Assembly: GCA_015491815.1 (NCBI GenBank)
Contig: WFVC01000029.1
Location: 1-38,734 of the forward strand
From: Gammaproteobacteria bacterium
GTDB taxonomy: Bacteria; Pseudomonadota; Gammaproteobacteria; UBA6429; Thiohalophilaceae
DNA length: 38,734 nucleotides
Direction of reading: 5' to 3'
Positions within the stretch are counted from its first letter, which is position 1. Every line of letters starts with the position of its first letter. The translations under genes and the position numbers were made by a program. The notes beneath the pieces were generated by a model. It saw only the letters and a program-made list of their open reading frames with translations. It was not told the DNA's origin and did no database searches. Below, piece by piece: positions 1,923 through 34,293 of the stretch.

Positions 1923-1943
1923 AGAAGTATGGAGCATACATTG

Positions 1944-2501: not shown

Positions 2502-2504
2502 TTT

Positions 2505-3908
2505 ATGCGCGCTCGTACCGTCAATCCCATTATCGCCAGTCTGTTTGGTCTTGGTTTGTGCTTGCCGGTAGTCGCCGCCGAGCTGCCGACGGCGACGGAA
2601 AAGCGGCTGGAAGCATTGGAAAAGCGCATCGAGACGCTGGAATCAGAAAACGCTTTACTCAAGAAATCACTCGACGAGCCTTATATCAGTGATCGGGAAC
2701 CGGAAATTTCCGCCCGTCTGAAGGCGGTCGAGTCGCAGGTGAACAGTTATCGTAAGGCCGCGCGCACGGTGGAAAGTCTGGACGGTATCGAGGCGGGCGT
2801 GGGTCTGACGATGGCCGCGCAGGGCGTTTCCGGCGCGCCCGCCGATGCGCAAAAGTCAGCCGAGCTGAACTATCGCGGCGATGTGACGGTGAGCCTGCCG
2901 GCGGGCAATATTGGCGCATCGGAAGGGTTTATTTTTACTCATTTTCGCATGGGCCAGGGGCTGGGACTGGAAAATCCCGGCGATGCGTTTTCTTCCTTTA
3001 ACGCCACCAGTTTCCAGCGTCCCGGCACTGCTACGGCGGACAGTACGGTGTTGCTGGCGCAGGCCTGGTATCAGCTGAACGTGCCGCTGCCGCTGGGCGG
3101 CAATCCGGATCTTTCGCGTCAGCATCTGGAGCTGAATTTCGGCAAGATCGACCCTTTTATTTTCTTTGATCAAAATACCATTGCCGATGATGAAACCCGG
3201 GGCTTTATGAATCAGGCTTTCGTGCATAATCCGCTGCTCGACGTTGGCGGCGATATCGGCGTGGATGACTTTGGTTTCTCGCCCGGCATGCGTCTGGCCT
3301 GGGTGAATGATTACTACAAACCGCAGACCTATGGCCTGTCGATGGGCGTCTTCGGCGCCGGCAAGGGCGCCAGTTTTGAAGATTCGTTTTCTGATCCTTT
3401 TGTTATTATGCAGGCCGAAACAGGTCAGCGTTTTTTCGGCGGGCTGGAAGGCAATTACCGCGTATATTACTGGCGCAATGGCCGGGGTCAGGACTTTGAT
3501 GGTATTGAAAACACCCATGCCGGCATCGGCCTGAGTCTGGATCAAAAAGTCGATGATTACACTACCCTGTTTGCCCGCGTTGGCTGGCAGACTCAGGGGC
3601 GGGTTAAATTCGATCGCACGCTGACCTTTGGTGCGGATTTCGGCGGCAGCTACTGGAGCCGGGGCGGCGATGCGATTGGCGTGGCGCTGGGCTGGTTATC
3701 GATCAGCGACGAATATAAAGCGGATTCAACCAGTCTGGTTGGCTTTAACGCCAGTGGTGCGGAACAAGTTGCCGAGCTTTATTATCGCTACCGCATCAAC
3801 AGCCAGTTTGAACTCTCGCCTAACTTGCAGTACCTTCGCCGGCCCGGTGGTAATTCAGGCGCTTCCGCCATGACCGCCTACGGTCTGCGAGTCCAACTGA
3901 ATTATTAA
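2505..3908 (+). CDS. Outer-membrane porin, OprB-like, in the iron operon
   Basis: The 467-residue product has a signal peptide (cleavage near VVAAE), then a predicted coiled coil at about residues 28-75 (ATEKRLEALEKRIETLESENALLKKSL). A long beta-barrel-type region follows, with alternating aromatic and glycine residues, ending in the outer-membrane style LRVQLNY with terminal aromatic Tyr. Segments such as LNFGKIDPFIFFDQN, DETRGFMNQAFVHNP and the GFSPGMRLAW region resemble OprB-type carbohydrate porins. It lies 3 bp after ftrA and 13 bp before ftrB, so it is very likely cotranscribed. Porins are not part of the described ftrABCD sets; passage of Fe2+ or a small ferrous complex across the outer membrane is inferred from position alone. 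Confidence 0.7.
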   Translation: MRARTVNPIIASLFGLGLCLPVVAAELPTATEKRLEALEKRIETLESENALLKKSLDEPYISDREPEISARLKAVESQVNSYRKAARTVESLDGIEAGVGLTMAAQGVSGAPADAQKSAELNYRGDVTVSLPAGNIGASEGFIFTHFRMGQGLGLENPGDAFSSFNATSFQRPGTATADSTVLLAQAWYQLNVPLPLGGNPDLSRQHLELNFGKIDPFIFFDQNTIADDETRGFMNQAFVHNPLLDVGGDIGVDDFGFSPGMRLAWVNDYYKPQTYGLSMGVFGAGKGASFEDSFSDPFVIMQAETGQRFFGGLEGNYRVYYWRNGRGQDFDGIENTHAGIGLSLDQKVDDYTTLFARVGWQTQGRVKFDRTLTFGADFGGSYWSRGGDAIGVALGWLSISDEYKADSTSLVGFNASGAEQVAELYYRYRINSQFELSPNLQYLRRPGGNSGASAMTAYGLRVQLNY

Positions 3909-3921
3909 TCAGGAAAACAGT

Positions 3922-4257
3922 ATGACTAGAAAATATAAATCGGGATTGATCTTTCTTGCCAGTTTCGTGCTTTCTGTGAATGCATGGGCCGGCCTGCCCG
4001 CCTACAAATTAACGATCAAGGACGGTCGCTTTGAGCCGGAAACCATTACGGTGCCGGCGCGTACGCGTTTCAAAATTGTGATCACCAATGAGGGACCGGG
4101 ACCGGAAGAATTTGAAAGCAAGGAGCTGCGCAAGGAATCGGTGATTGCCCCCGGCGTTACCCGTTCAGTTATTTTCGCCCCGTTGAAACCGGGACGTTAT
4201 CGTTTCTTTGGCGAGTTTCATCCGGAAACGGCGCAGGGCCACCTTGTTGTTGAATAA
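3922..4257 (+). CDS. ftrB: Cupredoxin-like periplasmic protein FtrB
   Basis: The 111-residue product has a signal peptide (SVNAWA) and a single cupredoxin-fold domain: YKLTIKDGRFEPETITVPA, KIVITNEGPGPEEFES, then the closing GRYRFFGEFHPETAQGHLVVE. In Bordetella ftrABCD, the cupredoxin-like FtrB is proposed to oxidise or hand over iron to the FTR1 permease. The usual type-1 copper set is absent: there is no Cys or Met in the C-terminal loop, only two His. Acidic residues (PEEFESKEL) replace the first His position, as in the EfeO N-terminal domain, so direct iron handling is plausible. An aggaa site precedes the ATG. Confidence 0.8.
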   Translation: MTRKYKSGLIFLASFVLSVNAWAGLPAYKLTIKDGRFEPETITVPARTRFKIVITNEGPGPEEFESKELRKESVIAPGVTRSVIFAPLKPGRYRFFGEFHPETAQGHLVVE

Positions 4258-4284
4258 AATTAATTAAGACGACGGAGAAGAATC

Positions 4285-5112
4285 ATGGGCAGCACTGTAT
4301 TTATCGTTTGGCGTGAAAGCATCGAAGCCATGCTGGTGATCGGTATTCTCTATACCTGGTTGAAAAATCAGGATGATGCCGGTAACGGCATGCATTTTCT
4401 CTGGGGTGGCGTGCTTGCCGGTGTGGCGCTGGCGATGGGGCTGGCCTTCGTAATGCTGGAAGTGCAAAGCGAGCTGGCGGGTGAGGCGCTGGAATATTTT
4501 CAGATCGCGATCATGCTGATTGCGGCAGGCCTGATCACCCAGATGGTGCTGTGGATGCGTCGTCACGGCCGCACGCTCAAGCGCGATCTGGAAACCGGTA
4601 TGCAGCGCGCCCATGAGCAGGCCAACTGGTGGGGCATGGCTGCGCTGGCGGCGATTGCGGTGGGCCGCGAAGGCGCGGAAACCGTGATTTTCCTTTATGG
4701 CGCCGGGCTGGCGCAAAGCGCGGACACCCAGCTGCAATTTATCGCGGCGGCGCTGGGCGGCTTCGGGCTGGCCTTCGTGACCTTCTGGCTGCTGTCACAG
4801 GGGACGCGCTTTTTTTCATGGAAAGTATTTTTCCGTTTCAGCGAGATCCTGTTGCTGTTGCTGGCGGCCGCCCTGCTGGTCGATGGCGTGGATCGCATGA
4901 TCGGTCTCGGCTGGTTGCCGACCCTGATCGATCCGGTCTGGGACAGCAGTTTTCTGCTGGATGACAGCACCCGCGTGGGCGGGGTGATTGCCGCCTTCAC
5001 CGGCTATCGCGCCCATCCGGCATTAACCCTGTTGCTGATTTATGCCGCGTACTGGCTGGTGGTCAGCCTGCTGCTGCGGCGGCCAACGGGATTGAATTCC
5101 CACGCGGCTTGA
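4285..5112 (+). CDS. ftrC: FTR1-family ferrous iron permease FtrC
   Basis: Inner-membrane iron permease of the Ftr1p/EfeU family. The 275 residues form about seven membrane segments. Two diagnostic R-E-x-x-E motifs are present: RESIE at residues 10-14 in the first helix and REGAE at 128-132 in the fourth, which line the iron path in this family. A ggagaag ribosome site precedes the ATG. It lies between the cupredoxin ftrB and the polyferredoxin ftrD, the same order as Bordetella ftrBCD. Confidence 0.9.
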   Translation: MGSTVFIVWRESIEAMLVIGILYTWLKNQDDAGNGMHFLWGGVLAGVALAMGLAFVMLEVQSELAGEALEYFQIAIMLIAAGLITQMVLWMRRHGRTLKRDLETGMQRAHEQANWWGMAALAAIAVGREGAETVIFLYGAGLAQSADTQLQFIAAALGGFGLAFVTFWLLSQGTRFFSWKVFFRFSEILLLLLAAALLVDGVDRMIGLGWLPTLIDPVWDSSFLLDDSTRVGGVIAAFTGYRAHPALTLLLIYAAYWLVVSLLLRRPTGLNSHAA

Positions 5113-5147
5113 AACGTCAATCCTGATTTTATCCGGAACAATGTATT

Positions 5148-6539
5148 ATGAATGAAATTGCCGAAACGCTGCCCCTTCCCCGTCGCCCCTGGCTGCAACG
5201 TCTGGGCGATTTCATGCAGGCCAAACGCAGCCTGATTCAGGGTATTCAGTGGCTGGTGGTGATCTTTTATCTGACTCTGTTGATCTGGCCGGCGCTGTTG
5301 CCGTTGCCCAAAGATTATGTGCATTTCTATGAAAACCTGATCCTGTTTGCGCAGTTTATTTTCTGGGGGATCTGGTGGCCCTTCGTGATGCTCAGCATGA
5401 TTTTAATCGGGCGCGTCTGGTGCGGGGTGTTCTGTCCGGAAGGCGCGTTAAGCGAATGGTCGAGCAAACATGGCATGGGCCGAACCATTCCGCACTGGAT
5501 GCGCTGGGGCGGCTGGCCCTTTGTTGCGTTTGTGCTGACCACCGTTTACGGGCAACTGGTCAGCGTGTATGAATATCCGAAAGCGGCGCTGTTGATCCTG
5601 GGGGGCTCGACCATCGCGGCAATGGTTGTCGGCTTTATTTATGGACGCGGGAAGCGTGTCTGGTGTCGCCACCTGTGTCCGGCCAACGGGGTGTTCTCCC
5701 TGCTTTCACGGTTAGCGCCGGTGCATTTTCAGGTGGACAGGGAAGCCTGGAAGCAGGCGCCGCGTCGCACTCCGGCGGTTGATTGCGCGCCGCTTATCAA
5801 TGTTCGGGCGATGACCGGCAACAGCGCCTGCCACATGTGTGGCCGTTGCAGCGGCTATCGCAATGCGGTGATGCTGGAAGCCCGCTCGCCGAATATCGAA
5901 ATTGTTTCGATTGAAAAAAAGGATGCAAACCACTGGGATATCCTTCTGTTGCTGTTTGGCATGCTGGGCGTGGCCACCGGCGCTTTTCAATGGTCGGCTT
6001 CCCCCTGGTTTGTGCAAATGAAGCAGGCTATCGCCGAATGGCTGATCGAGCGGGACAGCTTCTGGATGCTGGACAGCAATGCCCCCTGGTGGGTGCTGAC
6101 GCATTACCCCGAGACGAATGACGTTTTCAGCTGGCTGGACGGCGCGAGCATTTTACTTTATATCGGCGCGATGGCGCTGGTGATTGGCGGCCTGATAATG
6201 GCGGGACTCTGGCTGGCCGGACGCATCCTGAAAGAAGACAGCGCTATTCCCTGGCGGTTCGGTTATGCGCTGACTCCGCTGGCAGGCTTGAGCGTATTCC
6301 TTGGTTTGAGTGCGCTGACCTTAAGCATGCTCAAGGCGGAACACATCACGCTTGTCGGGATTGCGGAGTTGCGTATTCTGCTGCTGGTGATGGCCTATGT
6401 CTGGAGTGGTTTTCTGCTCTGGCGCATGATCATAAAAACCGAGATTGCTCGCGGGCGGCAGTTCGCGGCATGGACTGTGATTTTGGCCAGCGCCGCTCTG
6501 GTCGGGGCAAGCTGGATTACGATGTTTTTTGTCTGGTGA
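5148..6539 (+). CDS. ftrD: Membrane polyferredoxin FtrD (NapH/CcoG-like)
   Basis: The 463-residue product has N-terminal membrane segments, then NapH-type cysteine motifs: CGVFCPEGALSEW, CRHLCPANGVFS, and a CHMCGRC set in the soluble loop, followed by further membrane helices to the C-terminus. FtrD proteins are proposed to move electrons across the inner membrane to support iron oxidation and reduction during FTR1 transport. It is the last gene of the operon, 35 bp after ftrC, and converges on narL with only 35 bp between stops. The C-terminal membrane half is comparable in layout to that of the polyferredoxin at 15834-17363. Confidence 0.82.
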   Translation: MNEIAETLPLPRRPWLQRLGDFMQAKRSLIQGIQWLVVIFYLTLLIWPALLPLPKDYVHFYENLILFAQFIFWGIWWPFVMLSMILIGRVWCGVFCPEGALSEWSSKHGMGRTIPHWMRWGGWPFVAFVLTTVYGQLVSVYEYPKAALLILGGSTIAAMVVGFIYGRGKRVWCRHLCPANGVFSLLSRLAPVHFQVDREAWKQAPRRTPAVDCAPLINVRAMTGNSACHMCGRCSGYRNAVMLEARSPNIEIVSIEKKDANHWDILLLLFGMLGVATGAFQWSASPWFVQMKQAIAEWLIERDSFWMLDSNAPWWVLTHYPETNDVFSWLDGASILLYIGAMALVIGGLIMAGLWLAGRILKEDSAIPWRFGYALTPLAGLSVFLGLSALTLSMLKAEHITLVGIAELRILLLVMAYVWSGFLLWRMIIKTEIARGRQFAAWTVILASAALVGASWITMFFVW

Positions 6540-6574: not shown

Positions 6575-7213
6575 CTATTGTTTGTTTTGTTCGAGCATCC
6601 AGATAGCGGCTTCAAGCCGGTTGCGTAATTTGAGTTTGCGCAATAGATGTTTGACATGCACTTTAACTGTGCTCTCGACAATATTAAGTTCGCGGGCGAT
6701 CAGCTTGTTACTCATACCTTTCGCTATTAACTGAAGAATTTCATCTTCGCGACCGGTGAGTTTTACTGTTTTACGTGATTCCTCCTGTAGTCCCCGGACA
6801 ACCAGATCAGAGACTTTGTCGCTAAGAATGATTTGTCCGTTGACGACCTGATGCAGTCTTGTCAGCATATCTTCCGGCTCCATATCCTTAAGCAGATAAC
6901 CATCAGCGCCTGCGCGCAGGGTGGCGACGACGTCTTTTTCATTATCCGAAACAGTGAGAATAACCACGCGACTGTCCAGCTCGGCGGCTTTGATGGCTTT
7001 CAGCGTTTGCAGGCCATCCATTATCTCCATGTTCAAATCAAGCAGAATAATATCCGGCTTGAGTGACAGCGCCAGTTCCAGTCCTTCGGTGCCGTTGGAG
7101 GCTTCGGCGATAAGCTTGAAAGATTGATCCATACTGACAAGGTCGCTAATGCCTCGGCGCAATAGTGGGTGGTCATCAATAATAAGGATAGAGTGAGTAT
7201 TGCTTTTATTCAT
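6575..7213 (-). CDS. narL: Nitrate/nitrite response regulator, NarL/NarP type
   Basis: A 212-residue NarL/FixJ-class regulator. The receiver domain has acidic D13-D14, phospho-acceptor D59 in ILLDLNM, and the strongly NarL-like GADGYLLKDMEPEDML. The C-terminal LuxR-type helix-turn-helix has LTGREDEILQLIAKGMSNKLIARELNIVESTVKVHVKHLLRKLKLRNRLEAA, nearly superimposable on E. coli NarL/NarP. It begins one base after the narX stop, so the two are translated from one mRNA. Its likely target is the divergent cytochrome-napA promoter; choosing between NarL and NarP names is not possible from sequence alone. Confidence 0.9.
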   Translation of the reverse strand: MNKSNTHSILIIDDHPLLRRGISDLVSMDQSFKLIAEASNGTEGLELALSLKPDIILLDLNMEIMDGLQTLKAIKAAELDSRVVILTVSDNEKDVVATLRAGADGYLLKDMEPEDMLTRLHQVVNGQIILSDKVSDLVVRGLQEESRKTVKLTGREDEILQLIAKGMSNKLIARELNIVESTVKVHVKHLLRKLKLRNRLEAAIWMLEQNKQ

Positions 7214-7214
7214 G

Positions 7215-9188
7215 CTAGAGATTAACCGGCGTGGTGGGGGTGCTCGGGGTGAAAACCAGCTTAACCAGTGTTCCTCCCCCGGCGTTATTTTTTATTGTCA
7301 GTTTACCATTCATACTGCGGGTGCGTTCATTCATAATCGCCAGTCCATAGTGATGCGGCTGTGACTGAAGTTTGTCGATGCCAACGCCATCATCTTCGAT
7401 ATGGATCTGGATATCGCCCTGTGAGTTGTATTGTAACAATACTATTGCATTTTGTGCATGAGCATGATGAATAACATTGGACAGGGCTTCACGAATTAAT
7501 TGCAGAACATGGATTTCTTCATTCGGGGTTAGATCGAAGTAAGGCAGGCGATTATCACACTGGATATGCGTGTCGCTGCGGTCATTAAATTCTTCTACGG
7601 TTTTCTCCAGCGCTTCGTTAAAAGTCTCCCCCTCAAGTTTAAGGCGAAAGGTAGTGAGCAGTTCGCGCAGTTCACGGTAGGCGCTGTTCAGGCCCAGACG
7701 CAGTTCGGTAATAATTTTTTCTGCACTGGATTTATTTTCCGGTTTCTTTAATTCCGCCTGTAACAGGCTGACCTGTATTTTCATATAGGTCAGGGACTGG
7801 GCGAGTGAGTCGTGAAGTTCACGGGCAATCACGCTGCGTTCTTCTATCAATTCCAGACGTCGGTTTTCAGCCGCCTGCTGCGAATTGTTGATAGTCATAC
7901 CGATATGTCCAGCAATGGTTTCCAACAGTTGTATTTGCCATGTTTCCACCGTTTTTCCGCTATGCGGCGCCATTAATAACACGCCATAGCGTTGAGTTTT
8001 GTCTCTGATGGGAATCGTGATAATTTTTCTATCCAGATCAAAATCCATAAACCGGGTTTCATCTGTTTGTAAACACCGGCTGCAGCCATTTTTGTCACAT
8101 AATTGTTCTTTACAGATAGCCTGATCCAGGGTCGAAGCCAGCATGGCGGCGGATTTATTTATCTGATTGCTCAGGCAAATAGCGCCGCAATGCATGTCGG
8201 ATAATTGCTCGATGTCCTGTAACAATTGAGGGTAGGCTTCATGCGGGGTGGCGGCGAGGTTAAGATGTCTGACGGTTCTATAAAGCAATTCCAGTGAACA
8301 GTTGCTGCGTTCAAGATCCCTTGTTTTCTGCTGAACGCGATCTTCCAGTTCAGCATAAATATGAGACAGATCCTCCGCCATAGAGTTGAACGCCTGTCCC
8401 AGTTGTCCCAGCTCATCTTCTCCGGTGTACTGTGTGCGAAAGCTGAAATCCCGTTGTCGAGTGCGCTCGGCGCCAGTCAGTAATTGTTGCAGTGGTAGGC
8501 GAATGTGTTGTTTGACCAGGAACAGACCGGCCAACGCCAGCAGAACAGTAAGAGTCAGCGTGATGACCTGATAAATACGCAGATCTCGAATATTGCTCTC
8601 GGCATCGTCCTCAAGCAGTGAAACAAGATAGTCAATATTATTAACAAAATCGCTAACCAGAGAAAAATATTGGGCGCGCAGATTAGTGACCGCATCTTCA
8701 CTGATGGAGAAATCCTGACTGTCTTCAGACTGAAAGCCAAGCAGGCCATCAAGATAGATGTCAAACAGAGGTCGGATCTCCTCATGCCACTGATATTCAA
8801 TTCGTTCGTAGGCCTGTCGCAGGGGATGTTGCTGATCATCGGGAAGCACATCGGTGAGCGCCGGACTGTGCAAGTGTTGTTCAAACTCATCTATAAGGGC
8901 ATAGGTGTTCCGCCAGTGTTCTTTAATATCAATCGCATCGTAAACCATACTGCTGGCGATTCGATAGGAACGCATGCGCAGGGCGCCGGATTCATTGATG
9001 GCGGTTGCCTCGCCCTGCATGGTGTCGGCAATAAACAGGGAGACAGCCATGCTTGCAAAGGCAAGTAGAGTAATGGCGGCCATAACCGAACCGAGATTGA
9101 ACAGCAGTGAATGACGAAGACGCAGAGGCATAAAGCATTGTATCCGCCCCCAGCTTTTTCTAAAACCAGGGAGGCAGATTTTTATCAT
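7215..9188 (-). CDS. narX: Nitrate/nitrite sensor histidine kinase, NarX type
   Basis: 657 residues as the longest frame. The order is TM1 (about 33-53), a periplasmic domain opening with the nitrate-binding P-box ATAINESGALRMRSYRIAS (61-79), TM2 (about 208-225), HAMP, a GAF-like module with a NarX-type cysteine cluster (C334, C338, C359, C364, C369, C372), then a HisKA_3 domain with phospho-accepting H459 in ARELHDSLAQS, and a HATPase_c domain with EALSNVIHHA and DDGVGI. An ATG at 9131 (MPLRLRHSLLFN) may be the true start, since the 19 extra residues have no counterpart in typical NarX. It is transcribed away from the nap cluster and is directly followed by narL. Confidence 0.9.
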   Translation of the reverse strand: MIKICLPGFRKSWGRIQCFMPLRLRHSLLFNLGSVMAAITLLAFASMAVSLFIADTMQGEATAINESGALRMRSYRIASSMVYDAIDIKEHWRNTYALIDEFEQHLHSPALTDVLPDDQQHPLRQAYERIEYQWHEEIRPLFDIYLDGLLGFQSEDSQDFSISEDAVTNLRAQYFSLVSDFVNNIDYLVSLLEDDAESNIRDLRIYQVITLTLTVLLALAGLFLVKQHIRLPLQQLLTGAERTRQRDFSFRTQYTGEDELGQLGQAFNSMAEDLSHIYAELEDRVQQKTRDLERSNCSLELLYRTVRHLNLAATPHEAYPQLLQDIEQLSDMHCGAICLSNQINKSAAMLASTLDQAICKEQLCDKNGCSRCLQTDETRFMDFDLDRKIITIPIRDKTQRYGVLLMAPHSGKTVETWQIQLLETIAGHIGMTINNSQQAAENRRLELIEERSVIARELHDSLAQSLTYMKIQVSLLQAELKKPENKSSAEKIITELRLGLNSAYRELRELLTTFRLKLEGETFNEALEKTVEEFNDRSDTHIQCDNRLPYFDLTPNEEIHVLQLIREALSNVIHHAHAQNAIVLLQYNSQGDIQIHIEDDGVGIDKLQSQPHHYGLAIMNERTRSMNGKLTIKNNAGGGTLVKLVFTPSTPTTPVNL

Positions 9189-9491
9189 TTTGGCGTCAGG
9201 AAAGCGCTACCACCAAAAAGTCATAAACGTCATGGCGGAAATGAACAATCTCAAAAAAATATGAATAAACTTATTATTTACAACAACTTAACATAAGTTT
9301 GAATACTACCACCAAGGGAGTACTCAGGGGGGTGATCAATATTTTTAACGCAAAAAGCAGTTAGACAATAGTCGTAAACGCTTGCTATAACATGAGTCGA
9401 AATAAAATTGTGTGCTGTCGATACTGGCGCTAATTCGTTTGGCGTCAGATCAAACTGGCCGGAACAACTATAAATTTATGAGGGTAAATAT
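9189..9491. promoter_or_regulatory. narX / cytochrome-napA divergent control region with repeated motifs
   Basis: This 303-bp region holds two copies of ctaccaccaa (9207-9216 and 9306-9315). The second begins a 7-2-7 arrangement TACCACC-AA-GGGAGTA (9307-9322), whose half-sites approximate the NarL/NarP heptamer TACYYMT. An 11-bp direct repeat, tttggcgtcag, occurs at 9189-9199 and 9438-9448. No clear FNR site was found; one atcaa half-site follows the second 11-mer. An aggg ribosome site precedes the cytochrome start. Nitrate control through NarL is the simplest reading. Confidence 0.5.
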
Positions 9492-10154
9492 ATGAGACGC
9501 CATCAACAAATTGCCAGTAGGGTAGTGGGTCTGGCCCTGTTGGCAATTGGCTCTGCGGGGCATGCGAGCGCAAATGAAGTCACGCAGGGGAAACAGCTGT
9601 TTGAACAAAATTGCCAGGTCTGTCATCAGGCCGATGCGATTGGTAAGCCGGGGTTTGCGCCATCATTGACGAATAAAGAACTACTGAGTATCGGTTCAGA
9701 CAAATTCTTTATGTCCACCATTCGCGATGGCCGAACCGGTACGGGCATGCCGCCCTTTGCTCATCTGGGCAAGAAAAAAATAAAAGCCATTGTGGCTTTT
9801 CTACGCAGCCATGAAAAGCTGCCTAACCGTTCAAAAGAAGTGGATGCGCAGCCGGAAAGTTTCGGCGATGCGCGCAAGGGTGAACTCTGGTTCAATGAGA
9901 TCTGTGTCGCCTGCCACGGTGATCGGGGTGAAGGCTATGGCGCCGGTGTTGTCGGCACCGCGATTGGCAAGGCCGGCTTTCTAAACAAGGTGTCCGATGG
10001 CTTTATTCGTGAAACGATTAAGAATGGCCGTTCCAATACGCGCATGCGCGGCTTCTCCGGTTCGGGTGGACTGGCGAATCTGCGTGATTCGGAAATTGAA
10101 GATATCATTGCCTACCTCCGAACTCTTGGCGGTAAGAGCAACAGGGCGCGTTAA
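9492..10154 (+). CDS. Periplasmic dihaem cytochrome c
   Basis: The 220-residue protein has a signal peptide (cleavage near HASANE) and two class I cytochrome c domains. The first carries C41-QV-C44-H45 and a candidate Met ligand in GTGMPPF; the second carries C138-VA-C141-H142 and NTRMRGF. Such dihaem proteins shuttle electrons in the periplasm. It lies 47 bp before the NapA-like gene, where canonical systems would have a dihaem NapB, but it is not NapB: NapB lacks this duplicated cytochrome-c fold. It may be the electron donor or acceptor of the molybdoenzyme. Confidence 0.85.
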   Translation: MRRHQQIASRVVGLALLAIGSAGHASANEVTQGKQLFEQNCQVCHQADAIGKPGFAPSLTNKELLSIGSDKFFMSTIRDGRTGTGMPPFAHLGKKKIKAIVAFLRSHEKLPNRSKEVDAQPESFGDARKGELWFNEICVACHGDRGEGYGAGVVGTAIGKAGFLNKVSDGFIRETIKNGRSNTRMRGFSGSGGLANLRDSEIEDIIAYLRTLGGKSNRAR

Positions 10155-10201: not shown

Positions 10202-12901
10202 ATGAAACGCATTAAAGATATTTCCCGACGTGACTTTATTAAAAACAGCACGTTCATCACAGGCTCAGCCGCAGGCGCCGGACTCTTTGTCGGTAATAAC
10301 CCGGAACTGGAAGCGGCAACGTCTTCTTCAGATTCATCCTCTACAAAACGCACAACGGCATTGGCGCAATGCCCTTATTGCGGCGTGGGCTGCGGTACGG
10401 TTATTGTCTCGGAAAATGGAAAAATTGTTTCCATGCGCCCGGACAAGGATCATCCGACCAACTATGGTCTGCAGTGCATCAAGGGTCTGACCGCCGCCGA
10501 GCCTATCTACGTGGATCGCATGGAAGGGGACTCCTATGTGCGCAAGGATGTCTGGGAAGAATGGAACAAACCCGGTCATGGCGATATCGAATACACCAGC
10601 AAAACCAAGAATGCCTTTGACGAAGATCTTTTTGTTCGGGTGCCATACAAAAAAGCGTCAGAAATGGTGGCGCACAAGGTTGCGCATTTTGCGAAGAAAT
10701 ATGGCGGCAACTCGATTGCCCTGTATGGTTCCGGTCAGTTGACCATGGAAGGCCAGTATCTCGAAAACCTGTTCATGAAAGGGGTGCTGGGTTCCAATAC
10801 TATCGAAGCGAATGCGCGTATGTGTATGACTTCGGCGGTGACCGGCTATTTTGCGACCCTGGGTTCAGATACCCCGCCATTGGCCTATGAAGATCTGGAG
10901 CTGTCGGATATGGTCATGCACTTTGGCCACAATGCCCGTGAGTCCCATCCGATCATTTACTGGCGCATTGCAGATCACAAAAAGAAAACCGATATTCCAA
11001 CCGTGATCGTTGACCCGCGCTGGACAGGCTCCAGTCAGGGGTATGCGGATATCAATCCCAAAAACCATGTGCATGTGCCGATTATGAACGGCGACATTAG
11101 TTTCCTGAACTCACTGGCGCATGTGCTGTTAAAAGATCATGATGATGTTATCGATTGGGATTTCCTCAAAGCGCATGTTACCGGCTGGAAAGAGTATATT
11201 TCCGAAGTCAAAAAGAACTACAGTCCTGAGCAGGTTCAGGATCGCATGGGCAGTGACAAGGTTACGCCGGAAATGATTCGCCATGTTGCCGGTCTGTTTG
11301 CCGATGCAACCCGTAAGCGCCTGAAGCGCAGCAAGATGGAGCACAAAGGCGACGGGCATGGCGGCGTTATTATCATGTGGGGAATTGGTTATAACCAGCA
11401 TATTCACGGACAGCATAATGTTATTTCCATCATCAACCTGCTGACCCTGACCGGTAATCTGGCCAAGCCGGGTTGTGGACCGTTCTCAATGACCGGTCAG
11501 CCGAATGCTATGGGCGAACGCTTTACCGGTGGCCTGACCGGACGTCTGCCATTTAATATGCCGTTGAAAAACGCCAAACATCGCAAACACATGGCCAAGC
11601 AATGGGGTGTGCCGGAGAAAAATCTGATCCATGCCATGAATTCAGATAATCGTGGTATGGCGATTGGCATGATGGAACGCGCCAACAAGGGTGAAGTGAA
11701 GGCGATGTTCCTGGTTTATGCGACCCATATCGACCTGCCGGATCAGCATAATTTGGTGCGCCCGGGATTGATGAAATCCTTCAATGTGGTGCAGGAAATT
11801 TATCGGCATGCGCCGAATAATCTGTTTGCTGATGTGATTTTCCCGGCGGCGACCTGGGGTGAAGTGGACGGTGTTTATATCAGTTCAGAACGCCGCATCA
11901 ATATCTGTCAGGCCGGTGGCACGCCGCCTCCGGGATGTCTGCCGGATATGGACATGGTGATCGATAAGGGTAAGGAGATCGCCCATTTGTTAGGACTGGA
12001 TGGCGACAAGATTTTCCCCTGGGGTAAGAATGATAAAGGCTTCTATGATGCTGAACAGGTGTTCCGCTCGGTAGTCGAGGCTTCGGCGGGTAGTGACACC
12101 GATCTTACCGGTATGTTGGAAGTTGAAAAGATTGATGGCACTGGCCTGTATCAGCAGTTGATCGATCATCGCGGCATTCAGTGGCCGGCGCCGACCTATA
12201 CGATTGCCAAGGCCGGTGGCGCCAAACGCCGTTACATGAATCAGGAAGGCGTCTGGAAGTCCAAACCCTATGGTTATTTCCGCACCAAAGATGGCAAAGT
12301 GCACATGAAACTGTGTAAGCAGGATTACAGCCAGCGCAAGGAGATCACCAATAAGTTAATGCAGTTCGGTGTCAAGAAAGACTTTTATGTCATTGACAAT
12401 ATTGATCTTATCAAGAAAGCGCGCGACATGGCGCTTACCCCGGATTTACCGGATGAGAAGCACCGGGGTAAAAAGTGGCAGGATATTCCGAAAGATAAAT
12501 ATCCCTACTGGCTGGGACTGGGTGTGGTCTATGAACACTTCCATACCGCCAAATCCAACCGCAGTCCAACGACCCGTCGCCTGGTGCCGGAACAGTATGT
12601 GGAAATGCATCCGGATGATGCCGCCGCGCTGGGTATCAAGGATGGCGATCAGGTTCGCCTGATTACCCGTCGGGGACACTATCAGGCGCGTGCTCAGGTC
12701 GGCACCAATAGTATCGTCCGTCCGGCGCGCAACTCGGTTCCACCGGGGTATCTGTTTAGCCCCTGGAACCTGTCAGTTGCCGACAGCGCGGATCCGAAAA
12801 AGAACAAATGGCTGGTTAATGGGGTTTCCAACCGCGCCTTTGATCCGGTCTCTGGACAGGTGGACTTCAAAAAGCTGGCCTGTCGTATCGAGAAGGTATG
12901 A
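10202..12901 (+). CDS. napA: Periplasmic NapA-like molybdopterin oxidoreductase (divergent)
   Basis: 899 residues, longer than the roughly 830 of E. coli NapA. A Tat signal (SRRDFIKN at 8-15) is followed by a [4Fe-4S] motif C57-x2-C60-x3-C64-x27-C92 and the CIKG lysine. The predicted molybdenum ligand is C208 in NARMCMTSAV (NARHCMASAV in NapA). Further shared segments are GCGPFSMTGQPNAMG, the SSERRIN segment, EHFHTA and the terminal VDFKKLACRIEKV. Departures include CPYCGVGC instead of CRFCGTGC, ESHP instead of EMHP, HIHGQHN instead of HTRGVWANN, and an insert at about 105-145. Family membership is firm; nitrate as the substrate is probable but not certain. Confidence 0.8.
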   Translation: MKRIKDISRRDFIKNSTFITGSAAGAGLFVGNNPELEAATSSSDSSSTKRTTALAQCPYCGVGCGTVIVSENGKIVSMRPDKDHPTNYGLQCIKGLTAAEPIYVDRMEGDSYVRKDVWEEWNKPGHGDIEYTSKTKNAFDEDLFVRVPYKKASEMVAHKVAHFAKKYGGNSIALYGSGQLTMEGQYLENLFMKGVLGSNTIEANARMCMTSAVTGYFATLGSDTPPLAYEDLELSDMVMHFGHNARESHPIIYWRIADHKKKTDIPTVIVDPRWTGSSQGYADINPKNHVHVPIMNGDISFLNSLAHVLLKDHDDVIDWDFLKAHVTGWKEYISEVKKNYSPEQVQDRMGSDKVTPEMIRHVAGLFADATRKRLKRSKMEHKGDGHGGVIIMWGIGYNQHIHGQHNVISIINLLTLTGNLAKPGCGPFSMTGQPNAMGERFTGGLTGRLPFNMPLKNAKHRKHMAKQWGVPEKNLIHAMNSDNRGMAIGMMERANKGEVKAMFLVYATHIDLPDQHNLVRPGLMKSFNVVQEIYRHAPNNLFADVIFPAATWGEVDGVYISSERRINICQAGGTPPPGCLPDMDMVIDKGKEIAHLLGLDGDKIFPWGKNDKGFYDAEQVFRSVVEASAGSDTDLTGMLEVEKIDGTGLYQQLIDHRGIQWPAPTYTIAKAGGAKRRYMNQEGVWKSKPYGYFRTKDGKVHMKLCKQDYSQRKEITNKLMQFGVKKDFYVIDNIDLIKKARDMALTPDLPDEKHRGKKWQDIPKDKYPYWLGLGVVYEHFHTAKSNRSPTTRRLVPEQYVEMHPDDAAALGIKDGDQVRLITRRGHYQARAQVGTNSIVRPARNSVPPGYLFSPWNLSVADSADPKKNKWLVNGVSNRAFDPVSGQVDFKKLACRIEKV

Positions 12902-12940: not shown

Positions 12941-12976
12941 ATGCGGTACACCGGCTTTCGGTGTGCCGCATTTTTC
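12941..12976 (+). terminator. Strong intrinsic-terminator hairpin between napA and napG
   Basis: The stem atgcggtacaccg (12941-12953) pairs with cggtgtgccgcat (12959-12971), 13 bp with one G-U pair and a gcttt loop, followed by a short T run. It lies inside the 92-bp napA-napG gap. It should end part of the transcripts and give more cytochrome and catalytic subunit than membrane components, or protect the upstream mRNA 3' end. Confidence 0.75.
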
Positions 12977-12993: not shown

Positions 12994-13593
12994 ATGAAAA
13001 GACGCCATTTTTTAAAAGAACTTGTTGCCGGCGCAGTGGCAAGCTCTGTATTGAAGTCCTCTCTGGCGGAAGCCGCCTTCTCAGCACAAACTGCTCAACG
13101 CTATTTACGTCCCCCCGGCGCGCTGGCCGAGGAAGAGTTTGAAAGTCGTTGTATCCGCTGTGGTCAGTGTGGCGAAATATGCCCGAATCGTTGTATCGAA
13201 TATTTCGATCTTGAAAACGGCATAGATTCACTGAATACGCCCTTTATTGTTCCCCGCACCAAGGCCTGCATTTTATGTATGAAATGTGGACAGGTCTGCC
13301 CGACGGGCGCGTTAAAACCACTTGAACGTACGGCGAATGATATTCTGACGCATGTGCGAATGGGACGGGCAAGGGTGGAGGAAAGTCTGTGCCTGTCCTT
13401 TCAGGGCAAAACTTGCGGGGTCTGTTATCGCGCCTGTCCGCTGCAGGATGTGGCTATCAGGGTCGGCCTGCTGGAGCAGCCGCATGTCCTCGATGGTTGC
13501 GTTGGCTGTGGTTTGTGTGAACGATCCTGCATTCAATTACCGCAGGCCATAAAGATTATTCCCAATCATATAATTAAGGCGACGGCATCATGA
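12994..13593 (+). CDS. napG: NapG-type periplasmic ferredoxin (4 x [4Fe-4S])
   Basis: The 199-residue protein begins with a Tat signal (KRRHFLKEL plus hydrophobic stretch) and YLRPPGAL, as in NapG. Four cysteine groups follow: CIRCGQCGEIC, CILCMKCGQVC, CLSFQGKTCGVCYRAC (the NapG signature) and CVGCGLCERSC. With NapH, NapG forms a quinol-oxidising route to NapA. The ribosome site is weak (no clear purine run before the ATG), and the terminator hairpin lies just upstream. Its stop overlaps the napH start. Confidence 0.88.
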   Translation: MKRRHFLKELVAGAVASSVLKSSLAEAAFSAQTAQRYLRPPGALAEEEFESRCIRCGQCGEICPNRCIEYFDLENGIDSLNTPFIVPRTKACILCMKCGQVCPTGALKPLERTANDILTHVRMGRARVEESLCLSFQGKTCGVCYRACPLQDVAIRVGLLEQPHVLDGCVGCGLCERSCIQLPQAIKIIPNHIIKATAS

Positions 13594-14582
13594 GCGCAAT
13601 ACGGAAGCCATTTTTTCTCTGGCGGCATCTCAATAAATTACGCTGGCTGGTATTGAGTCTGATTTTTATGATGCTGGTGTTTTTACCCTTTGTGCATGTC
13701 TATCAGACTTACGTTGCCTCATTTTCCTATGACCTGCTCTCTGAAAATGAAAAAGAACTGTTTGATATCATGGCGGCGCTAACGTCACCATTGACGGATA
13801 ATCCTGCCGATGATCTGGATGCGATCAAGGGCAACACCTGGTCGGGTAATTTTTTCGGTTATCAGATTTCTGATCCGCTGGCGGTGGTCGGGCAGGTGGC
13901 GGCGGGTCTCTCGGTTTACTGGCCCTTTGTCCTGACTGCGTTATTGCCGGTAATTTTTACGCTTTTGTTTGGGCGTTTTTTCTGTGGCTGGATTTGCCCG
14001 GCGACATTTTTATATGAACTCAACACGATTGTTTCATTATCACTGCAGCGCGCCGGCATCAAGGTGGGCCAGCGTCGTTTTGATCGACGGCTAAAATATC
14101 TGGTGCTGGTCATCGGCCTGATTATTTCGGCCATCAGTGGATCGGTGCTTATCTCGGTTATTTACCCGCCGGCGATTATCGGCCGCGAACTGTATTTTGG
14201 TATCGCCCTTGGCGGCGTGGGCGCGGGACTGGTGTTTTTTGTTCTGACCCTGTTGTTTGATCTGTTTGTTTCACGCCGGGGGTTTTGCCGCTATGTCTGC
14301 CCCGGTGGCGCGCTCTATTCTCTGCTTGGTCGATTCAGACTTTTCCGTATTCGACGCATTGTAGAAAATTGCAATGACTGCGCGAAATGCAATGCGGTTT
14401 GCGAGTTTGCACTGGATCCTCTGCACGATGATTTCGGTCAGGAATGCAATAATTGCACGGCCTGTATTGCGGTTTGTCCCACTGATGCGATGACCTTTGT
14501 GATCCGGCCAGTGGATGAGCCGAATCAGGGACCGGGCCATCTGGGGAAAAAATACAAACGTCAGCAACAGCAAAAAGGATAG
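13590..14582 (+). CDS. napH: NapH membrane polyferredoxin
   Basis: The 330-residue membrane protein has about four hydrophobic segments, the cytoplasmic-side motifs CGWICPATFLYEL and CRYVCPGGALYSL, and two C-terminal [4Fe-4S] sets (CNDCAKCNAVC and CNNCTACIAVC). This is the standard NapH plan: quinol oxidation coupled to NapG. The ATGA overlap with napG implies translational coupling. A periplasmic loop of about 60 residues lies between the first two helices. Confidence 0.88.
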   Translation: MSAIRKPFFLWRHLNKLRWLVLSLIFMMLVFLPFVHVYQTYVASFSYDLLSENEKELFDIMAALTSPLTDNPADDLDAIKGNTWSGNFFGYQISDPLAVVGQVAAGLSVYWPFVLTALLPVIFTLLFGRFFCGWICPATFLYELNTIVSLSLQRAGIKVGQRRFDRRLKYLVLVIGLIISAISGSVLISVIYPPAIIGRELYFGIALGGVGAGLVFFVLTLLFDLFVSRRGFCRYVCPGGALYSLLGRFRLFRIRRIVENCNDCAKCNAVCEFALDPLHDDFGQECNNCTACIAVCPTDAMTFVIRPVDEPNQGPGHLGKKYKRQQQQKG

Positions 14583-14586
14583 CAAT

Positions 14587-15201
14587 ATGCGTCGGCGTTC
14601 TTTTTTACAGAGGTTGATTGTTAGCGCCGGCATGCTGGGCGCGGCGATCCTGCCCTATGGTTTGGCGCGTCTGTTGAGTCCTGCTGTCGCCAGTGATTTT
14701 TCCCGCCATTTGCGTCCACCCGGTTCCCTGAAAAATGACGAGGATTTTATCGCCGCCTGTATCGGTTGTGGTCTGTGTGGTGAGATATGTCCGCCGAAGT
14801 GTATTTTGTTCGATAAACGCGAAGGGGGTAATCAGCTCAATACGCCCTATATCAATCCGGAAGTCAAAGCCTGTACGCTTTGCGCTAAATGCATGGACGT
14901 CTGTCCGACGGAAGCCATTACCCATTTAGAACGCAATGAGATTAAGATGGGCATCGCCCAGATCGATCGCAGCGCCTGTTATCCCTGGGTTGATCGCGGT
15001 GTGTGTGGCGCCTGTGTGGCCATTTGTCCACTGGGGGAAAAAGCCATTACCTTTGAGTTTGCCAATATGTATCGTCCGGTGGTTATCGAAAAAGGTTGTG
15101 TCGGTTGTGGCCTGTGCGTAGAGATCTGCCCGCATCCCAGCCTGCCAATCAGAATTGTTGAACCGTCGATGGGCACAGTGGTAAAACACGCCATTAGTTA
15201 A
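14587..15201 (+). CDS. Second NapG-type periplasmic ferredoxin
   Basis: The start is set at 14587 (MRRRSFLQRL), which gives a proper Tat signal and an aaggat ribosome site; the longer frame from 14515 would run into napH. The 204 residues repeat the NapG plan: HLRPPGSL, CIGCGLCGEIC, CTLCAKCMDVC, CYPWVDRGVCGACVAIC and CVGCGLCVEIC. It is clearly a paralogue of 12994-13593 and only 4 bp from napH. A second NapG in one cluster is unusual; it could pair with the membrane polyferredoxin at 15834-17363. Confidence 0.85.
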   Translation: MRRRSFLQRLIVSAGMLGAAILPYGLARLLSPAVASDFSRHLRPPGSLKNDEDFIAACIGCGLCGEICPPKCILFDKREGGNQLNTPYINPEVKACTLCAKCMDVCPTEAITHLERNEIKMGIAQIDRSACYPWVDRGVCGACVAICPLGEKAITFEFANMYRPVVIEKGCVGCGLCVEICPHPSLPIRIVEPSMGTVVKHAIS

Positions 15202-15240: not shown

Positions 15241-15837
15241 ATGAAAAATGTAAAAATAATTTCCGTCTCAGGTCGAGTAACCATTCTGTTGCTCAGTTTA
15301 ATATTGTCGGCTAATGCTTTTGCTCATCATGTGCTTGGCCGGCCGGCCTACAGCTTGAATGAAGATTCAAACACGCCACCGAGCATGGAAGTGGAAACAC
15401 AGATTGGAAACTACTTCGTTACCTATATGATTTTTCCCGCCTTTCCCCGGCCCGGAGAAAAAGGCCGGATTAATATTTACGCTTCCAGAATTGATAATGG
15501 CGATACGCTGTCTGTCCCCGTAACATTCATGGTGCGCAATGACGGCTGGTTTACAGACAGCGCGGAAGAGACGTTGGGTACGCAGGAAGTCTATGATGGC
15601 GTTTACCGGCAGGGTTTCGTGTTTAAGGAAAAGGGTAGTTATATCATAACCGCAAAATTTGAAGCCGATGGTGAACCTTATATTATCGACTTTCCTCTGC
15701 AAATCGGCGAGAGCACCTCGATGCTGCCAATCGGCATTGCTCTGGGGAGTATCGTATTAATTTTGGCCGGGGTGAATATTCTGCAACGCAAACGTCTAAT
15801 GCGTGAAAAAATACGTGAGGTTCGGGATAGCTCATGA
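15241..15837 (+). CDS. FixH/YtkA-like periplasmic protein with C-terminal anchor
   Basis: The 198-residue product has a signal peptide ending SANAFA, so the mature chain would start HHVLGRPAY. The middle is a beta-sandwich-like domain with PAFPRPGEKGRINIYASRI and VPVTFMVRNDG, the pattern of FixH/YtkA domains. A membrane helix (about 161-181) and a basic tail (QRKRLMREKIREV) close the protein, placing the domain in the periplasm. No cysteines are present. The stop overlaps the next start (ATGA), so the two are coupled. FixH proteins are linked to copper handling; a metal role here is inference. No function is established. Confidence 0.6.
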   Translation: MKNVKIISVSGRVTILLLSLILSANAFAHHVLGRPAYSLNEDSNTPPSMEVETQIGNYFVTYMIFPAFPRPGEKGRINIYASRIDNGDTLSVPVTFMVRNDGWFTDSAEETLGTQEVYDGVYRQGFVFKEKGSYIITAKFEADGEPYIIDFPLQIGESTSMLPIGIALGSIVLILAGVNILQRKRLMREKIREVRDSS

Positions 15838-17363
15838 TTATGACGCACCCCGGTTTGCCCGAACTCTGGGGCTATCTGGTCTGGGGATTTATGCTGTCGC
15901 TTGGCGTCTGGTCATTGTTTGCCGCTACTCCCGCTGAGCGGCCGCGCCGAACCCTGAATCTGAAAACCTTCCGGCTGACCCGGCCGGTGTTGCAGTTACT
16001 GCTTTATTCGCGCTGGCCTTTGCAATTATTGAAAATCATAGTCGTGGCGATTTTTTTGCTGGTCATTGTCGCCGGACTTTATGGAACCCCGATTGCGGAA
16101 AGAAATCTGGCTACCGTGCTGACCTGGAATATCTGGTGGGCGGGCTTGATTGTCTCGGTTTTTTTCATCGGTTCAGCGTGGTGCGCAGTCTGCCCCTGGG
16201 ATACGCTGGCAAGCTGGATGGTCAGGCCGCGCCTGTGGCTGGGCAAAATACATTTTAAAATTAGCAATAGTCTTGATCTGAAAGTCCCGCGTTACTTACG
16301 CAACGTCTGGCCGGCATTGCTGATGTTTGTCGGCCTGACCTGGCTGGAGCTGGGTATCGGCGTGACTACCAGTCCCTATGCAACGGCTCTGTTATCCCTG
16401 TTGATGGTGGTGCTGGCGACACTGGGCATGGCCCTGTTCAGAAACAAGGCGTTTTGCCGTTTTGTCTGCCCGGTGGGGCGGACGATAGGTTTTTATTCAC
16501 AACTGGCGCCGGTGGAACTACGACCGATTGACACCGAACTTTGCGCCCGTTGCACCACGCTGGAATGCTACAACGGCACGGATAAAATCGATCCCTGTCC
16601 GACCCAACTGGTGATGGGAAGCCTGAGCCAGAATACCTATTGCACCTCCTGCGGAAATTGCGCACGTAGTTGTCCGCAACAGAATGTTTCATGGCGTCTG
16701 CGTCCTCCGAGTCAGGAGGCGATTGCCGATGCGCGCCCGCACTGGGACGAAGCCTGGTTTATGCTTGGATTGCTCGCCATGACTACGTTTCACGGCCTGA
16801 CCATGATGCCGTTCTGGGAACAATGGATGACGGCCTTTGCACAGATGATTGGCGATTCGGGTCAGTTGTTGATGAGTTTTTCGGTGGGGCTGTTTGTCAG
16901 CATGCTTCTGCCCGCCTTATTGTACGCGCTGAGCGTTTTTATGCTTCAGCATTTCAATGCGAATAAAAAAGATTTTCGATCGCTGTTTATCGGACTGGTG
17001 TTTGTCTCCTTGCCGCTGGCTTTTGCCTATCATCTTGCGCACAATCTTAACCATCTGGTGCGAGAGGGCGCCGGTTTGCTCGGCATGTTTAAGAATCCAC
17101 TGGGAATCGGGCTTGAGCCACTGAGTATGGCGGAGAAACATCAGCGGCATTTTGAAATGCTGATCTCACAGGATGCCCTGTTTGCGATACAGGGGCTGTT
17201 AATGATGTTTGGCTTCTGGCTGGCGATAAAAGTTCTGCGTCATCGCGGTCAGCGTTTGCTACCCGAGGCGGGTTGGCGCATGTTGCCGATGCTGCTATTT
17301 ATTTTTTTAATTAACGGTTTTAATCTGTGGTTGCTGATGCAGCCTATGATTATGAGAATGTAA
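15834..17363 (+). CDS. Large membrane polyferredoxin (NapH-like, about ten helices)
   Basis: 509 residues. The N-terminal half is NapH-like: GSAWCAVCPWDTL and CRFVCPVGRTIGF at the membrane, then a soluble region with LCARCTTLECYNG...CPTQ and YCTSCGNCARSC, room for two [4Fe-4S] clusters. The C-terminal half adds five or six helices, including AYHLAHNLNHL with several His that could bind haem or a metal. Longer than NapH (about 300) and lacking the periplasmic flavin domain of NosR. It probably relays electrons across the membrane for the FixH-like partner. An alternative start lies at 15840. Confidence 0.75.
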   Translation: MIMTHPGLPELWGYLVWGFMLSLGVWSLFAATPAERPRRTLNLKTFRLTRPVLQLLLYSRWPLQLLKIIVVAIFLLVIVAGLYGTPIAERNLATVLTWNIWWAGLIVSVFFIGSAWCAVCPWDTLASWMVRPRLWLGKIHFKISNSLDLKVPRYLRNVWPALLMFVGLTWLELGIGVTTSPYATALLSLLMVVLATLGMALFRNKAFCRFVCPVGRTIGFYSQLAPVELRPIDTELCARCTTLECYNGTDKIDPCPTQLVMGSLSQNTYCTSCGNCARSCPQQNVSWRLRPPSQEAIADARPHWDEAWFMLGLLAMTTFHGLTMMPFWEQWMTAFAQMIGDSGQLLMSFSVGLFVSMLLPALLYALSVFMLQHFNANKKDFRSLFIGLVFVSLPLAFAYHLAHNLNHLVREGAGLLGMFKNPLGIGLEPLSMAEKHQRHFEMLISQDALFAIQGLLMMFGFWLAIKVLRHRGQRLLPEAGWRMLPMLLFIFLINGFNLWLLMQPMIMRM

Positions 17364-17373
17364 GGGACGCTGA

Positions 17374-17970
17374 ATGGATCGTAGAGAATTTTTCAGACGC
17401 AGCGCCAATAAAGTCGCAAAGAAAGTCACCGTGCATGTTAATGATAAGGTAGAGAAGAATGCCGCGCACTGGATACGTCCTCCTTTTGCGATGGATGAAT
17501 TAAATTTTCTGCTGGCTTGCACCCGCTGTAAAGGCTGCATCGAAGCCTGTCGCTATGATGTTATTTTTCCCTTGCCCGCAAGGCGGGGAGCGCAGGTGGT
17601 TTCGACGCCGGTGCTGGATCTGTTAAATAAGGCCTGTCATCTGTGTGAGGACTGGCCCTGTGTACAGGCCTGTGAAACCGGCGCGTTGAAATTACCGGTG
17701 AAAGAAATTGACGATGATTCAGAACCGGAAGCTCAAGCGCGCGTGCTGCCAAAGCTTGCCCGTGTTTCAATCGATGAAAAAAATTGTCTGCCATATTCCG
17801 GGCCGGAATGCGGCGCCTGTCAGGGGAGTTGCCCGGTTCCCGACGCCCTGATCTGGGAAGGTGAAAAACCGTTCATCAATGAAGCGAACTGCAGCGGTTG
17901 CGGCTTATGCCGTGAGGCCTGCATATTTGATCCTAAAGCGATTCGGATACAATCGAAACACGCATCCTGA
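17374..17970 (+). CDS. napF: NapF-type cytoplasmic ferredoxin
   Basis: 198 residues with four [4Fe-4S] motifs: CTRCKGCIEAC, CHLCEDWPCVQAC, CLPYSGPECGACQGSC and CSGCGLCREAC. The opening WIRPPFAMDELNFLLACTRC follows NapF (IRPPW..DE..FL..CTRC). The N-terminus has arginine pairs (DRREFFRRS) but no hydrophobic stretch, so it should stay in the cytoplasm, where NapF helps mature NapA's iron-sulfur centre. It is longer than the 164-residue E. coli NapF because of an acidic insert (about 108-118). An aaggga site precedes the ATG. Confidence 0.82.
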   Translation: MDRREFFRRSANKVAKKVTVHVNDKVEKNAAHWIRPPFAMDELNFLLACTRCKGCIEACRYDVIFPLPARRGAQVVSTPVLDLLNKACHLCEDWPCVQACETGALKLPVKEIDDDSEPEAQARVLPKLARVSIDEKNCLPYSGPECGACQGSCPVPDALIWEGEKPFINEANCSGCGLCREACIFDPKAIRIQSKHAS

Positions 17971-18037: not shown

Positions 18038-18736
18038 TCAATCCCAGTCCTCATTATCTTGTTCCGGCATATCAGGATGACAGCGCTGGCAGGGAATATT
18101 TTTCTCACTGTAGTAATCATGGTCATCGTCATCACCACCCCGGTAGGGTTCGTAGTCATCGGGTAGGTGGTGGGCAATCCCTTTGTGGCAGTCGATACAG
18201 GTTTTGCCGCGCTGTTGTGACAGACTGTGTATGGTGCGGCTGCGACTTTGTTGACGCTCCATATTCATGGCGCTGAAATTATGACAGTTGCGGCATTCCC
18301 TTGAATCCGTGTCTTTCATGGTTTCCCAGACATGACTGGCCAGTTCCAGTCGTTTAGCCTGAAATTTTTCCGGCGTATCAATCGAGCCCAATACCTTATG
18401 CATCAGCTCATTGGTGGCCTGAATTTTTCGTAACAATTTGTGTTTCCATTCGCGCGGGACATGACAGTCCGGGCAGGTGGCGCGAACACCGGTGCGATTA
18501 CTGTAATGAATGGTGTGGCGATATTCCTGATAGACGTTTTCTTTCATTTCATGACAGGTAATGCAGAAATCCATATTATTGGTTTCTTCCATCGCGGTAT
18601 TGAATGCGCCCCAGAATATAATGCCGAGAATGAAAACAGCAAAAAGGAAAAGTAGTAGATAGATGCTGCTGAGGTGTCTTATCGTGTGCTGCAGGCGTTG
18701 TAAAAGATCAGGTTTCTGAGATTTTTTATCTGACAT
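18038..18736 (-). CDS. napC: NapC/NirT-family membrane cytochrome c with five haem sites
   Basis: 232 residues: one N-terminal anchor (about 23-44), then haem motifs CITCH (58-62), CPDCH (88-92), CRNCH (148-152) and CIDCH (180-184), the tetrahaem NapC/NirT plan with MDFCITCHEM and HKGIAHHLP. A fifth site, CQRCH at 216-220, follows an Asp-rich stretch (GGDDDDHDYY) near the C-terminus and is not part of standard NapC. NapC proteins oxidise quinol and pass electrons to periplasmic reductases. It is convergent with napF rather than in the operon. Confidence 0.88.
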   Translation of the reverse strand: MSDKKSQKPDLLQRLQHTIRHLSSIYLLLFLFAVFILGIIFWGAFNTAMEETNNMDFCITCHEMKENVYQEYRHTIHYSNRTGVRATCPDCHVPREWKHKLLRKIQATNELMHKVLGSIDTPEKFQAKRLELASHVWETMKDTDSRECRNCHNFSAMNMERQQSRSRTIHSLSQQRGKTCIDCHKGIAHHLPDDYEPYRGGDDDDHDYYSEKNIPCQRCHPDMPEQDNEDWD

Positions 18737-33864: not shown

Positions 33865-33917
33865 TATGAAAACTCCTGTCATCCTGCAAATCAGAATAAT
33901 TCTGTGTGAAGGTAAAT

Positions 33918-34235: not shown

Positions 34236-34293
34236 GAGTGGTTCCTCTAAAAATATCTGTTCTGTATTTGTGTGTTTTTAAGCCGGGCTTTTA

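Follow-up and report, generated by a model that had tools for sequence, protein, structure and literature searches.

Genes and Features of the Locus

The window (the whole 38,734-nucleotide stretch of DNA analyzed here) carries a gene for a molybdoenzyme, set among genes for electron-transfer and regulatory proteins. The features are as follows:

6575–7213, minus strand, NarL response regulator (NCBIfam NarL, 290 bits, above the cut-off of 250)
7215–9188, minus strand, NarX/NarQ-like sensor kinase, divergent from the operon (P-box-like motif)
9307–9322, no strand assigned, predicted NarL-type 7-2-7 site TACCACC-AA-GGGAGTA upstream of the cytochrome gene (aligned conserved island)
9492–10154, plus strand, periplasmic diheme c-type cytochrome (CXXCH at residues 41 and 138)
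10202–12901, plus strand, molybdoenzyme catalytic subunit of an apparently new lineage, 899 amino acids (Pfam, NapA HMM, trees)
12941–12971, plus strand, terminator-like hairpin of 14 pairs with a T tail (consensus match only)
12994–13593, plus strand, NapG-like ferredoxin-type protein 1 (profile match)
13590–14582, plus strand, NapH-like membrane ferredoxin 1, quinol dehydrogenase type (profile match)
14515–15201, plus strand, NapG-like ferredoxin-type protein 2 (profile match)
15241–15837, plus strand, periplasmic Ig-like protein with a C-terminal membrane helix (alignment, model)
15834–17363, plus strand, NapH-like polyferredoxin membrane protein 2, 509 amino acids (profile and Pfam match)
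17374–17970, plus strand, NapG-like ferredoxin-type protein 3 (profile match)
18038–18736, minus strand, NapC/NirT-type quinol dehydrogenase, convergent with the operon (five CXXCH motifs)

The molybdoenzyme reading frame is intact and starts with ATG. Its product has a Tat-type RR motif (SRRDFIK) and three Pfam domains of Mo-bisMGD oxidoreductases, namely Molybdopterin, Molydop_binding, and Fe4S4. The operon has a conserved order: diheme cytochrome c, molybdoenzyme, NapG, NapH, NapG, a metal-binding-like protein, a second NapH, and NapG, often with NapC. Across 81 loci, the diheme cytochrome c recurred in at least 71, NapG-type proteins in at least 74, NapH in at least 68, the Ig-like protein in at least 49, the second NapH type in at least 44, and NapC in at least 37; these counts are lower bounds because many contigs end within the operon and the gene caller sometimes took the wrong strand. 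No match to napB or napD was found in the window operon or among the recurrent neighbors, although small or diverged genes could escape such a search. The diheme cytochrome c is the probable electron donor in the place of NapB.

The Ig-like protein matched no Pfam or NCBIfam family. Following a predicted signal peptide, its predicted mature N-terminus is an invariant His-His pair, and its model (pLDDT 88) shows a weak fold match to the copper proteins CrdA and PmoD and to FetP. Together, these features suggest that the protein may bind a metal. Some copies of the family have molybdenum-cofactor genes of the moaA/moeA type and an FNR gene as neighbors. In the window itself, the NapC-like protein has five CXXCH motifs versus the usual four, and the hairpin separates the molybdoenzyme gene from the first napG-like gene, where it possibly sets subunit ratios.

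A Discrete and Widespread Family

Family members are 71–94% identical to the window enzyme and occur in Gamma-, Alpha-, Beta-, and Zetaproteobacteria and in Magnetococcales. The lower figure is the minimum among the best 80 of 160 matches in a search of one genome per species. All collected sequences outside the family fall below 36% identity to the window enzyme, and full-length plasmid matches reach at most 30%. In a sample of 200 Pseudomonadota genomes, 11 (the window's own counted) held a strong match of at least 72% each, and no intermediates of 40–65% identity linking the family to NapA were found. If the window's genome is excluded, the family is present in 10 of 199 sampled Pseudomonadota genomes, and more than 80 loci were found overall. 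One metagenome-assembled genome (MAG), BWSM_42, has two copies on separate contigs (L009 and L010, 94 and 92% identical to the window enzyme), reflecting either duplication or mixed strains.

The family is real, discrete, and widespread, and seemingly without a name; an open-access literature search returned no publication naming either it or its operon. It makes up a third branch of the Nap/Nas group and has an operon of its own.

Relationship to NapA, Nas, and Formate Dehydrogenases

In phylogenetic trees, the family forms one clade (100/100) and NapA, including the enzyme of solved structure from Desulfovibrio desulfuricans (Dd NapA), forms another (100/98). This phylogeny upholds the proposal of the first-pass annotation that the enzyme belongs to a separate clade. 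The careful tree joins the family to NapA as its sister (99/90) and leaves Nas outside. Grouping the family with proteobacterial NapA, to the exclusion of Dd NapA, was not rejected by an AU test (p = 0.35), so the branching order near the base of NapA is not fixed. On these trees the family is best placed as the sister of NapA within the Nap/Nas group, with the exact order near the NapA base being less firm. Its stem is long, at 2.2–2.3 changes per column, and its crown is shallow.

Profile scores point the same way. The window enzyme scores 310.7 bits against the NapA model TIGR01706 (cut-off 930.55), 328 against PRK13532 (cut-off 904), and 246 versus 1000 and 226 versus 1100 bits against the curated NasA/NasC models; none of the curated models reported matches the family at its cut-off. 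It is very unlikely that the enzyme is an ordinary canonical NapA that has drifted locally. Its best HMM match is NapA, as are the top eight fold matches of its predicted model, but the fully supported separate clade with its long stem, a score of 311 bits against a required 931, the lack of any recognized napB or napD, and the loss of the tyrosine that contacts NapB all speak against drift. By score, clade, and partners, the sequences put the family outside NapA, and an identity as ordinary NapA was rejected on those grounds.

The resemblance to NapA (TIGR01706; napFDAGHBC) nevertheless extends to Tat export, the [4Fe-4S] and Mo-bisMGD fold, the Cys-Met pair at molybdenum, equivalents of Arg354, Asp155, and Gln374, and partners of the NapG, NapH, and NapC types. 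Unlike NapA, to which it is ~26–29% identical over the aligned part, the family has its own clade, another kind of diheme cytochrome c instead of a recognizable NapB or NapD, four substitutions (Tyr58 to Leu, Arg720 to Val, Glu156 to Thr, and Asp355 to Phe), and two inserts.

With NasA, NasC, and NarB, the family shares the CPYCGVGC and TGQPNAMG motifs, the Cys-Met pair, and the lack of an acid at the Glu156 position. Those enzymes are cytoplasmic and linked to nirBD, whereas the family has the Tat-type RR motif of an exported protein and c-type cytochrome neighbors, and is sister to NapA in the careful tree. Cytoplasmic formate dehydrogenases (FdhF/FdsA) have the same fold and the CPYCGVGC motif, and some members have a QHxHG motif. 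Most Fdh enzymes, however, carry Cys/Sec-His and RGQN, whereas the family has Met209 after the molybdenum ligand and TGQP (CM and TGQP in 85 of 85 members), and it falls outside the Fdh group in trees. Met209 and TGQP were the grounds for rejecting a formate dehydrogenase identity.

The family falls in the broad monophyletic NasC/NasA/NapA-like group that Wells et al. 2023 (PMC10100899) describe in their MopB survey, the consulted passages of which name no third lineage with such an operon. What appears to be new is a lineage with its own operon, clearly separate from its known relative, the periplasmic nitrate reductase.

Active Site and Substrate Channel

Residue numbering was checked against Dd NapA, and conservation was scored in an alignment of 85 family members. 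All 85 keep the molybdenum ligand Cys208 (Dd Cys140) with Met209 (Dd Met141), Asp223 (Dd Asp155), Gln433 (E. coli Gln374), the TGQP motif (RGQN in Fdh), and Arg440, the counterpart of Dd Arg354, which is a proposed nitrate-binding residue (PMC13223375, the source of the residue roles). Lys94, which lies between the cluster and the pterin, is invariant as well. The universal retention of Cys-Met, Arg440, Asp223, Gln433, and TGQP counts in favor of a nitrate reductase.

The loss of both channel acids in every member counts against that reading. Glu156 is replaced by Thr224 in 85 of 85 members, and Asp355 by Phe441 in 81 and by Leu in the other four. The acid at 156 is missing from Nas enzymes too, but an Asp or Glu is present at position 355 in every NapA, Nas, and Fdh sequence aligned there, which makes the substitution at 441 the channel feature that most clearly sets the family apart in these alignments. 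In the pterin patch, Arg720 is replaced by Val775 in 84 of 85 members and by Ile in one. Tyr58, which contacts NapB in solved NapAB complexes, corresponds to an invariant Leu96, which fits a donor other than NapB.

The first-pass annotation had noted Cys208, a set of unusual motifs, and an insert before residue 150, and had read the changes as an altered substrate funnel, possibly with a substrate other than nitrate. The observation itself was sound. The quoted motifs are present family-wide and are thus not sequencing noise: CPYCGVGC and NQHIHGQ occur throughout, and RE(S/A)HP has Ser in 71 and Ala in 14 of the 85 members. The insert is also real: compared with E. coli NapA, ~20 residues are added at 117–136, where conservation is strong (K115, D116, W118, E120, and W121 are invariant), and a further insert of ~40 residues lies at 700–739. 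In contrast, the named positions are not invariant in NapA, since Dd NapA has EAHP and RVQGVFANN, and CPYCGVGC is less distinctive than supposed, being the version of the Fe-S motif that is usual in Nas and Fdh. ESHP does not sit in the funnel but in the pterin-binding patch, which corresponds to E. coli NapA residues 212–219 (PMC13223375). The channel does differ, at Thr224 and Phe441, so that the interpretation holds in part: the separate clade stands, but the placing of the named changes along the funnel is mostly wrong, given that one is the Fe-S motif and another the pterin patch. An AlphaFold model of the enzyme has a mean pLDDT of 76 that drops to about 50 or less in segments of the active site and is also poor around HIHGQHN, and channel distances from it were therefore left out of the analysis.

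Regulatory Signals

The sensor kinase divergent from the operon keeps the nitrate P-box-like INESGALRMRSYR. The predicted NarL site departs at two positions from the inverted repeat consensus TACYACY-NN-RGTRGTA, and forms a conserved island amid a poorly conserved upstream region in the window and four relatives (L009, L011, L012, and L013). Divergent narXL genes and a conserved NarL site are found together in the window's subclade. Across the family, 21 of 65 loci have a perfect FNR-type box no more than 320 bp ahead of the cytochrome gene, versus 16 of 505 control genes of the same loci (Fisher p = 2e-12); none was found ahead of the operon in the window. Regulation of the operon looks tied to anaerobiosis and, in the window's lineage, to nitrate. 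Because E. coli NarL is also a repressor of reductases that use other acceptors, control by nitrate does not by itself identify the substrate.

These signals bear on the direction of the reaction. An oxidizing enzyme would pass electrons from its donor to cytochrome c, with NapGH/NapC returning electrons to quinone. The diheme cytochrome c could act as such an acceptor, several members come from sulfur- or iron-oxidizing lineages, and the window has sox genes at a distance of 14 kb. We consider this improbable, as FNR-type anaerobic control and NarL sites fit a terminal reductase, the NapC/NapGH partners are of the quinol-dehydrogenase type, the family groups with nitrate reductases, and heterotrophs such as Photobacterium and Shewanella carry it too.

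Genomic Context and Co-Occurrence

The window's genome also has a canonical napFAGHBC operon (NapA, 1530 bits; contig C102), which adjoins d1-heme (nirS-type) accessory genes, and encodes a pair of Nas-type enzymes besides. This organism thus has other candidates of the group, to which the window enzyme is an addition. The second Nas-type gene (genome G000, contig C77, L093) lies by genes for a Rieske-type small protein and a NirB-like protein, and is cut by the contig end.

Among 50 member genomes, canonical NapA occurs in 21 (19 over the cut-off), and NarG is rare, with six (three over the cut-off). NapA is neither significantly enriched nor depleted (19/50 versus 15/58, p = 0.21). NirS is more common in member genomes (21/50 versus 31/189, p = 4e-4), in a comparison that ignores relatedness and MAG quality. 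Twelve of the 25 member genomes without NapA and NarG have a nitrite reductase (NirS and/or NirK), with a NirS-type protein in 11 and NirK in one more; these co-occurrences are associations, and NapA or NarG may be hidden by MAG incompleteness. Individual loci show similar links. For example, at L034 the operon is followed by moaA, nirS (6.3 kb downstream), and a nirE-type uroporphyrinogen methyltransferase gene, and at L039 a canonical nap operon is adjacent to and divergent from the family operon.

Candidatus Ferrigenium bremense BP (L080) carries the family together with NirS and NirK, and genome searches found neither NapA nor NarG in it. It is absent from the narGH-bearing Gallionellaceae named in PMC10734462. 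Its source, culture BP, is lithoautotrophic, nitrate-reducing, and Fe(II)-oxidizing, with Gallionellaceae dominant (PMC11784278).

Taken as a whole, the context (narXL, the NarL site, FNR boxes, and nirS or nap neighbors in relatives) favors nitrate as the substrate. The main alternative, though a less likely one, is that a periplasmic reductase of this type works beside canonical Nap on another substrate (e.g., another oxyanion or an N-oxide). Canonical NapA, in one or two copies, is already present in the cultured genera checked (Shewanella, Photobacterium, and Ruegeria) and in the window's genome, so that a nitrate role would be redundant there. The loss of both channel acids and of the pterin-binding Arg720 across the family also suits a different substrate, as does an electron-transfer set without NapB, and identities of 71–94% across classes suggest a fixed, specialized task. 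On the other hand, the equivalents of Arg354, Asp155, Gln374, and Cys-Met are retained, NarXL and a predicted NarL site adjoin the gene, and about half of the genomes without NapA and NarG have a nitrite reductase. We hold similarly tentative the fuller form of this proposal, in which a distinct non-nitrate respiratory reductase beside Nap has its own quinol-to-cytochrome chain and a His-headed, perhaps metal-binding, periplasmic subunit.

Proposed Role and Its Implications

From the family, operon, residues, and regulatory sites described above, we infer an electron route, a reaction direction, and a substrate. With modestly better than even confidence, we favor a third Mo-bisMGD lineage of the Nap/Nas group that is exported by Tat and serves as a terminal reductase in the periplasm, where it most likely converts nitrate to nitrite. 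Electrons would leave the quinol pool via NapC and/or the NapH/NapG-type ferredoxin proteins, and the diheme cytochrome c, in the place of NapB, would receive them. From there they would reach the [4Fe-4S] cluster of the enzyme and then molybdenum, where the substrate would lose an oxygen atom. Control would be exerted by the divergent NarXL in the window's lineage and by FNR-type regulators in many relatives.

If the enzyme does reduce nitrate, surveys confined to NapA and NarG overlook a respiratory nitrate reductase. This would affect Fe(II)- and sulfur-oxidizing MAGs that seem to begin denitrification at nitrite, and Ca. Ferrigenium bremense BP, with the family, NirS, and NirK and no NapA or NarG found, is a direct test case. 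If the substrate is another, the family would represent a widespread respiratory reaction that is, as far as could be found, unassigned.

Several further neighbors were observed. A DUF255-like thioredoxin-fold protein (~800 amino acids, assigned without an HMM) lies near the operon in 12 loci (L043, L045, L050, L051, L056, L059, L060, L062, L066, L080, L081, and L087), and a hemerythrin-like membrane protein, judged by sequence without an HMM, in four (L053, L060, L072, and L039). In the window, an FtrABCD-like iron-uptake set directly before narL (1929–6539) encodes a P19-like Fe2+ transport protein, an OprB-type porin, a cupredoxin, an FTR1 permease, and a membrane polyferredoxin. Genes for a SoxA/TsdA-type cytochrome c and SoxY (32986–34758) indicate that the organism is probably a sulfur oxidizer. 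Finally, positions 24480–25139 hold a gene of the thiopurine S-methyltransferase (TPMT) family, bacterial members of which are tied to selenium and tellurium methylation.
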